64,000 nucleotides of DNA, taken from assembly GCA_017433295.1 (NCBI GenBank), contig JAFRHL010000013.1, positions 1 to 64,000 on the forward strand, in the 5' to 3' direction. The position numbers and the translations under genes are program-made. Below are positions 12,462 to 52,893 of this stretch, in pieces (the first letter of the stretch is position 1; each line of letters opens with the position of its first letter). The notes under the pieces were generated by a model that did no database searches, was not told the DNA's origin, and saw only the letters and a list, made by a program, of their open reading frames with translations. The DNA comes from Eubacterium sp. (GTDB lineage Bacteria > Bacillota > Clostridia > Lachnospirales > Lachnospiraceae).

Positions 12462-12520
12462 AACCGTCAGGATTCATTTTCATGTAGCTTATACATGGAA
12501 TCCTGACGGTTTTCTGTTTT
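12462..12520 (+). terminator. Intrinsic terminator of ackA
   Basis: A perfect 14-bp stem (12462-12475 with 12498-12511) encloses a 22-base loop and is followed by TTCTGTTTT. It lies 25 bases after the ackA stop codon. Confidence 0.85.
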
Positions 12521-12607: not shown

Positions 12608-12841
12608 GGTTACCTGTATCTATTAAACAGCCTGCCTGCAGGCAAACCTCTTTGCATTTTAGAAACACAGCCGGAAATGGCCCCATATATTTCAACGGGT
12701 GACTTTGCACCGCAGGAAAACAGAGACAAAAGATTTATCAAAAGTCCCCAATTTCCGAGGAGCAACGGAACCCGGGGAAATATATGGGGCCACTTCCGGC
12801 GTCTTTCTATGAATACAAGGTCTGTTTACCGATACAAAAAC
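12608..12841. ncRNA. Long hairpin element with conserved core, copy 1
   Basis: The sequence folds on itself over about 234 bases. The inner arms 12671-12693 and 12777-12799 are almost perfectly complementary (23 bp). Weaker pairing continues outward to 12608 and 12841, interrupted by a small palindrome TGCCTGCAGGCA on the left. The unpaired centre carries TGACTTTGCACCGCAGGAAA (12700-12719) and CAATTTCCGAGGAG followed by AACGGAA (to 12770). Both segments recur nearly unchanged at 52756-52824. The core is closed by GGG:CCC here and by AAG:CTT there. The right arm begins immediately after the stop codon of the aminotransferase gene. I do not recognise the class. It could be a non-coding RNA read in either direction or a hairpin mobile element. 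Confidence 0.6.
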
Positions 12842-47935: not shown

Positions 47936-47980
47936 AGGATTACTTCCTTTCACTTGGATAGATCTGATGTTACAATCACT

Positions 47981-48044
47981 AATCACCTGAAATGTCCGTC
48001 AAGTACAAACGTAAGTCTGCTGTTGTCGGACATTTCAGATGATT
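47981..48044 (-). promoter_or_regulatory. Long inverted repeat in the plsX leader
   Basis: Arms 47981-47998 and 48027-48044 match over 18 positions with one mismatch; the core is CTGAAATGTCCG/CGGACATTTCAG. The arms are separated by 28 bases. It begins about five bases after the predicted start point and ends some 45 bases before the ATG, with no U-run, so it is an operator or RNA leader structure rather than a terminator. It does not match the FapR operator. Confidence 0.55.
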
Positions 48045-48055
48045 ACTGAATGAAT

Positions 48056-52595: not shown

Positions 52596-52624
52596 ATTAT
52601 ACACATCCGCATTTTCTTTGTCAA
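52596..52624 (-). promoter_or_regulatory. Sigma-A promoter of yceD-rpmF
   Basis: On the minus strand a consensus TTGACA (52619-52624) and TATAAT (52596-52601) are 17 bases apart, giving a leader of about 30 bases. Confidence 0.88.
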
Positions 52625-52674: not shown

Positions 52675-52893
52675 GAATGCATAAAATGTTGATTTGTGGG
52701 GGTGGTTTTGGTTTTGCCAGGTAAACGCAGCAGAGGAGGGGTATATGTCTGAAAGTGACTTTGCACCGCAGGAAATCATAGACAAAAACTGCCAAATGAC
52801 TTCAATTTCCGAGGAGGAACGGAACTTGCAGACATAGTCCCCCTCGTTCTCTGCGTCTGTCTGGCCAAACAAACCCCCCATAAATTAGCATTC
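52675..52893. ncRNA. Long hairpin element with conserved core, copy 2
   Basis: About 219 bases fold as one long imperfect hairpin: GAATGC at 52675 pairs with GCATTC at 52888, and strong pairing holds close to the core, where ATGTCTG meets CAGACAT. Its arms have no sequence likeness to copy 1, yet the centre repeats TGACTTTGCACCGCAGGAAA (52756-52775) and CAATTTCCGAGGAG followed by AACGGAA (52803-52823). On the plus strand a weak promoter (TTCATA 52632-52637, TATACT 52656-52661, 18-base spacer) ends just before the element, and the right arm stops a few bases before the ribosome binding site of the ylbJ-like gene. It may be a leader RNA for that gene or an independent RNA. Confidence 0.6.

Follow-up and report, generated by a model that had tools for sequence, protein, structure and literature searches.

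Two intergenic elements in the window, the whole 64,000-nucleotide stretch of DNA analysed here, share a near-identical bipartite core enclosed in a long helix, and the question they raise is whether such hairpins form a new structured RNA family, as the original prediction proposed, or a class of repeats that operates as DNA. Both elements were recovered, and each folds as RNA more stably than every shuffled version (copy 1: -96.6 kcal/mol, z -9.2; copy 2: -91.7 kcal/mol, z -8.0; 0/200 shuffles as stable in either case).

Architecture of the hairpins

Copy 1 is a compact hairpin element at 12668-12804 on the forward strand, matched by the family covariance model R1 with 129.3 bits (E 2.5e-37). 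Its 5′ arm (12668-12699), with the foot CAG, is complementary to the 3′ arm (12771-12804), which terminates in the foot CGTCT; between them lie the 5′ core half TGACTTTGCACCGCAGGAAA (12700-12719), a variable apical loop (12720-12748), loops being unlike between copies, and the 3′ core half CAATTTCCGAGGAGCAACGGAA (12749-12770). Copy 2 contains a hairpin at 52724-52858 on the same strand (R1, 129.3 bits, E 2.6e-37), with core halves at 52756-52775 (TGACTTTGCACCGCAGGAAA again) and 52803-52824; CAATTTCCGAGGAGNAACGGAA is found at both 12749-12770 and 52803-52824. This copy is the larger variant, an extended element running from 52683 (start approximate) to 52893 on the forward strand, with TIR-like ends (AAATGTTGATTTGTGGGGG... 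and ...CCCCCCATAAATTAGCATT) that were located by a TIR-like pattern and by comparison of ends, and that are common to other copies, the right end being degraded. R1 detected these two elements and no others in the window, and the pairs closing the core change together as predicted (GGG:CCC against AAG:CTT).

The neighbouring genes encode an acetate kinase, an aminotransferase and a YceD protein, the fourth neighbour having no Pfam match. A perfect consensus promoter (TTGACA, 17, TATAAT) occupies 52596-52624 on the reverse strand, in the region upstream of the YceD gene, and adjoins the second element. A separate imperfect inverted repeat at 47973-48052, with 30-nt arms that are 87% complementary, has no R1 match.

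Across the family the hairpin measures ~120-170 nt. On the core strand, the foot CAG is followed by a 5′ arm (~25-30 nt) and the first half of the core; beyond a variable apex come the second half, the 3′ arm and the foot CGTCTG. The arms (~25-30 bp) vary in sequence yet stay Watson-Crick complementary. CGTCTG is found in the window's genome, where the feet of compact copies are conserved, and in some relatives, and it is absent from many others. Core half 1 reads TGACTTTGCACCGCAGGAAA in this genome and G[AC]CTTTG[CT]A[CG]C[AG]CA across species; core half 2 reads TTTCCGAGGAGNAACGGAA and CGAG[CG]A[AG][CG]AACG[AG]A, respectively. The apex is mostly unstructured in this genome, and in relatives (e.g. 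L105:385-507 and L098:1150-1279) it can form an A-tract/stem/T-tract palindrome resembling a two-way terminator.

The core is an alternation of paired steps and conserved non-pairs, the latter comprising G.A/A.G, T.C, A.A and a GCA/GA loop; the conserved mismatches are mostly G.A/A.G on one strand. Additional G.A mismatches occur at positions 5-7 outside the core, in 27, 20 and 7 of 56 elements, respectively; these positions hold 54 of the 65 G.A mismatches in the arms. Because the opposite strand would carry C.T mismatches, folding is likelier for the core strand, and it is probably this strand, folded, that is recognized. As the asymmetric core is conserved from species to species, something in it must be under selection.

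Copies, classes and distribution

The original prediction described two copies, and the genome holds about 40, forming a dispersed hairpin family. R1, which was built from 34 of the genome's own copies and has 136 model positions, identified 38 places scoring at least 55 bits in 2.9 Mb, the weaker reverse-strand echoes expected of a palindrome having been set aside. The core 20-mer was found at 36 sites with up to three mismatches, 29 of them exact, and its reversed control at none. Since four contigs (C27, C36, C43 and C44) terminate in or near element pieces, the true copy number is probably above 38.

Copies occur singly or as inverted pairs, several of the latter being present, and fall into two size classes. 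Compact copies measure ~150-160 bp; extended ones hold a single hairpin, or two in inverted orientation, enclosed by the TIR-like ends AAATGTTGATTTGTGGGG. The seven extended copies with both ends located range from 208 to 672 bp. Only this class has TIR-like ends, the compact copies and the relatives inspected being without them. The TIR-like pattern occurs at 17 genomic sites, 15 of which coincide with known copies, the other two being on C36, near a contig end, and on C23. Three composites (L005:1848-1981, L025:1744-1878 and L012:1469-1604) carry a hairpin of one arm family inside the halves of the other family's, as if one hairpin had replaced the apex of another. At two further loci (L033 and L052), about three tandem repeats of the 3′ foot motif (CCTGCGTCTGTTA-like, or CGGCGTCT) follow the hairpin just past its 3′ foot.

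The prediction that the helices are unrelated between copies and complementary within each was correct in its second part. By eye, the arms of the window's genome form two main families; mean 5′ arm identity over that genome's copies is 0.54, against 0.26 for shuffled letters. The corresponding value is 0.87 in RUG14137, 0.50, 0.42 and 0.32 in three other genomes and 0.40 between genomes, and core identity is 0.97 within genomes and 0.88 between them. Judged by these values, some lineages seem to have amplified their copies independently.

A covariance-model search yielded homologues: among 24 genomes of the genus, eight match R1 at E 0.01 or better, and seven of these eight, the window's own included, have core-bearing copies, so that six relatives carry the element, one of them (G011) with a partial core. 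The R1 match in G003 has no core. Long near-perfect palindromes in G003 (L054:1501-1595) and G015 (L061:363-454) match R1 through their arms only and possibly represent another class of long palindromes in the genus; the G003 match and L061 were left out of later counts. A degenerate core pattern recovered 22 stretches in five named MAGs, labelled Lachnospiraceae or Eubacterium, from a collection that represents 84,980 species by one genome each and may omit records near the window's own genome. The same pattern, which misses diverged cores, was found in 0/396 other genomes of the family (397 genomes and 334 genera, own included). The strict core pattern matched nothing outside the window's genome, and spread was therefore judged by the models and the looser pattern; a family-wide model search, in which eight candidates were scored per genome, is a weak negative, the pattern search being the firmer. 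So far, then, the family has been seen in one small group of bacteria. The 16-mer CTTTGCACCGCAGGAA is absent from the literature searched, and publications on MITEs and Lachnospiraceae, judged by title and the start of the abstract, included nothing related; this large, clade-restricted palindromic repeat family is apparently undescribed.

Complementary arms as RNA or as DNA

Compensatory change in the arms was confirmed on a broader sample. In the 34 own copies, standard pairs fill 95.1% of pair cells, 21/33 pairs show two-sided changes, and the covariation score is 0.404, compared with 0.129 for shuffles (0/500 reach the observed value) and at most 0.134 for slid versions. In 52 distinct rows that include five other genomes, in an alignment that was itself fitted to the model, 95.5% of cells are standard, 28/33 pairs change on both sides, and the score rises to 0.589, against 0.168 for shuffles (again 0/500) and at most 0.129 for slid versions. 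Orthologous copies, which in two or three species have flanks about 77-92% identical, display the same behaviour, with the core unchanged and blocks of the arms altered on both sides (L048 and L049). The arms of L073 and L074 differ by mismatches on one side only (A.G, C.A).

Covariation of this strength, within the genome and across species, would fit a structured RNA, such as a 3′-UTR element or small RNA, in which an internal-loop core binds a protein and selection on the RNA helix holds the arms. The conserved one-sided G.A mismatches agree with it, tandem G.A being equally typical of RNA, as does an upstream neighbour that is co-directional in 16/17 non-duplicate relatives. Structured RNA under selection, however, normally shows many G-U intermediates. 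In the arms of 56 elements (the first 28 positions in 34 of the 38 own copies and in 22 from relatives that fit a strict core pattern), we counted 1365 Watson-Crick pairs, 25 G.T, 33 A.C, 65 G.A, 30 other mismatches and 20 gaps. G.T makes up a share statistically indistinguishable from one half (p 0.36) and far short of an arbitrary RNA-like yardstick of 80% (p 7e-10), the cells of related copies not being independent. Apical stems are similar, with 266 Watson-Crick, 3 G.T, 1 A.C and 6 other among 276 ungapped cells in relatives, and 229, 4, 8 and 10, respectively, in the window's genome. Wobble pairs are thus not favoured over A.C mismatches in the covarying helices, measured against a general expectation for RNA rather than against this genome's own RNAs.

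Two further features sit poorly with a transcript: pairing continues into the TIR-like ends, and in some relatives an apex that looks terminator-like by eye would stop transcription before the second core half, although a simple terminator scan scored neither apex at the one locus scanned. The original prediction recognized no known RNA class in the core, and Rfam likewise gave no window match at the gathering score, with only three sub-threshold plant or animal miRNA matches in the element region, and over 18 loci it gave two tRNAs and one sub-threshold match, none on an element. For want of an Rfam match, a riboswitch, ribozyme, 6S, SRP RNA and the like were rejected; a kink-turn was discounted on inspection, since the tandem G.A of the core lacks an adjacent 3-nt bulge.

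The covarying family with homologues therefore stands, whereas its RNA nature is not established; an RNA identity is possible, and we consider it rather unlikely. Because selection on an RNA helix would tolerate G.U, the simplest account of the missing wobble preference is that complementarity is upheld in DNA, either by selection on the hairpin or by the copying of one arm from the other during replication; mutation alone could also produce the lack of wobble. An RNA is often regarded as proven by compensatory change, which here is very strong yet comes with no wobble preference and with DNA-like features; this makes the family a test case for separating RNA selection from palindrome upkeep in DNA.

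Gene context, spread and relation to known repeats

According to a crude ORF caller, and ignoring short ORFs within the element region, 25/27 own loci lie outside kept ORFs; at L007 an ORF overlaps the element by 35 bp, and at L024 a long reading frame contains the copy in its upstream portion. Most copies are found just past gene ends, mostly near gene 3′ ends. In 31 own rows, taken from the window and 19 other stretches, the downstream neighbour opposes the core strand in 21, within 72 bp in 20 of these; such opposing neighbours are found in 20/22 rows of relatives (18/20 minus two duplicate rows). The 3′ foot thus usually points towards an oncoming gene's end. The expectation is ~47-48%, from local gaps of at least 100 bp (p 0.016 for own rows; p 2.9e-5 for the relatives' 22 rows, duplicates included). 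The relatives' rows are not independent, L101/L107 and L095/L100/L108 being orthologous, and three loci that misfit the strict core pattern (L092, L065 and L076) were omitted from both the arm-pair and the neighbour-orientation counts.

Convergent genes flank 13/15 non-duplicate relatives with both neighbours (two of the 13 mutually orthologous), in gaps mostly under 60 bp, against a baseline in the relatives' contigs, element gaps included, of 20/101 for gaps of any length and 17/59 for gaps of at least 100 bp. In the window's genome, 12/31 rows are convergent. Placement between convergent genes would suit two-way terminators or 3′-end barriers serving such genes, which would have been spread or copied inside the clade and would use the core as the functional stop. 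Among own loci with both neighbours, however, 5/25 are divergent and 11/25 tandem. Moreover, the acetate kinase gene has its own terminator-like hairpin at ~12462-12513 (recognized by eye; unlisted by the scan, which has a loop limit of 8), long T-tracts beyond the feet are rare in the copies inspected, and a terminator has no need of a conserved core of about 35 nt. On balance, a terminator role is improbable.

By GC skew, the core strand is on the lagging side in 16/19 single own copies (p 0.004 for 16:3), in 15/18 when one with a divergent partner is removed, and in 22/31 of all own rows. This bias is weak in relatives (15/24 rows, or 14/22 without duplicates), whose contigs are short.

Extended copies at unlinked loci are 84-91% identical over 190-520 bp, and the core-bearing element is absent from the compared place at one locus of G016 (L110). 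By eye, none is present downstream of the aminotransferase gene in G016, where the neighbouring gene differs, or in the 164 bp available from G006. Together, these similarities and absences suggest that copies have spread. Other copies share their places in two and in three species; such retention argues against simple hopping and for long residence.

The original prediction had set a MITE aside on the grounds that its ends would be conserved, an exclusion that fails in view of the TIR-like ends of extended copies and the conserved feet of compact ones; of the identical terminal repeats with target-site duplications that it named as signs of a MITE, the extended copies have TIR-like ends, and no consistent duplication was found among 11 copies compared, end coordinates being uncertain for four. 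The family could accordingly consist of MITEs in decay, derived from an ordinary insertion sequence with a transposase that reads the TIR-like ends, hairpin and core being passengers, and the elements resemble MITEs in being non-coding and multi-copy. Against this reading, however, it is the core rather than the ends that is conserved across species, the body being better conserved than the ends, which the compact copies and the relatives inspected lack. No parent transposon or insertion sequence with such ends was identified at the 15 pattern sites that coincide with known copies, and the middle of the composite is unmatched away from the copies except for 35 bp. We regard a MITE origin as distinctly improbable. 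An origin from phages or plasmids was rejected, as neither phages (copy 1 as query) nor plasmids (copy 2 as query) gave a match and viral contigs contained neither the strict nor the degenerate core pattern.

The closest parallels are REP/BIME repeats of the GTAG class, which go with TnpA-REP (RAYT) and are likewise dispersed intergenic palindromes, often in inverted pairs and near gene 3′ ends. According to excerpts of PMC8266576, TnpA-REP reads a folded single strand, relying on the loop, the tag or mismatches in the stem, and disregards the complementary strand; in E. coli REP, a conserved stem mismatch is needed and single-stranded DNA is bound strand-specifically, which is reminiscent of the core mismatches conserved here on one strand. 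Excerpts of PMC3733652, the main text of which contains neither "Firmicutes" nor "Clostridi", describe small tagged REPs that often lie between convergent genes and, in two species, are mostly no more than 20 bp from 3′ ends, as well as a CGTC-tagged class without a dedicated transposase. The present elements share with that class the CGTC at the foot of many copies, the intergenic and often convergent placement, the inverted dimers and the lack of a dedicated transposase. In behaviour, then, the elements resemble REPs, being intergenic, next to convergent or same-direction genes apart from the divergent loci counted above, and often in inverted pairs, but they differ in size, tag and enzyme. 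REPs of the GTAG class measure 20-40 bp and carry a GTAG tag, whereas the elements are ~120-170 nt long, with no GTAG tag seen, no conserved arm sequence and no linked RAYT. CGTC-tagged REPs, in the same excerpts, have 8-9 bp stems, a terminal tag and a short CCA-like tail at the opposite end; here the stems are 25-30 bp, and CGTC occupies the 3′ foot of the core strand and is missing in many relatives.

A Y1 transposase (RAYT) as partner is not supported. Y1 genes do not track the element, being present in 16/24 genomes, element-free ones included, and having no match in three genomes that carry elements (G011, G015 and G016). No element adjoins a Y1 gene at the seven loci inspected of 39 listed, in genomes that are incomplete, and no transposase was seen by eye in five intervals between neighbouring copies.

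We consider, with about even confidence, that the family is a REP/BIME-like palindromic DNA repeat of unusual size, working as DNA and read as a folded single strand. This reading draws on the copy number, the genome-specific arm families, the lack of wobble preference, the inverted pairs and TIR-like ends, the absences at relatives' compared places, the convergent placement, the lagging-side core strand and the REP precedents. It is weakened by the lack of a partner enzyme and of a consistent target-site duplication, by the orthologous copies and the weak lagging bias in relatives, by the non-independence of the relatives' rows, and by the two points raised above, that mutation alone could explain the missing wobble and that G.A mismatches are equally RNA-typical. 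Under this REP-like reading, the core strand would be folded in its single-stranded form, for instance on the lagging strand; IS608 and ISDra2 are known to move through such DNA (excerpts of PMC6006769). A putative hairpin-binding enzyme would recognize the folded core through its mismatches, as TnpA-REP does the E. coli REP, and would have spread the copies. Drifting arms may be kept complementary by arm-to-arm copying at the palindrome (quasipalindrome correction), by selection on the DNA hairpin or by both. Copies would survive near gene ends because such sites tolerate insertions or profit from them, for instance in supercoiling or 3′-end formation.

Integron attC sites are likewise variable self-complementary stems with conserved unpaired positions that are read as a folded single strand. 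It is conceivable, if rather doubtful, that an enzyme distinct from both REP transposases and integron integrases reads the long folded strand through its series of G.A mismatches, so that the arms can change from copy to copy and between species provided that they stay complementary. The REP-like reading would extend REP-like biology, with much larger hairpins, to a Lachnospiraceae clade, and the family points to a hairpin-binding protein as a candidate.

The argument that the elements are not coding DNA was upheld, as core-to-core distances vary by lengths that are not multiples of three, so that no coding is conserved. Some copies are open in one frame and extend called ORFs N-terminally (L209:10170-11804 and L196:13429-13746), which could mislead annotation.
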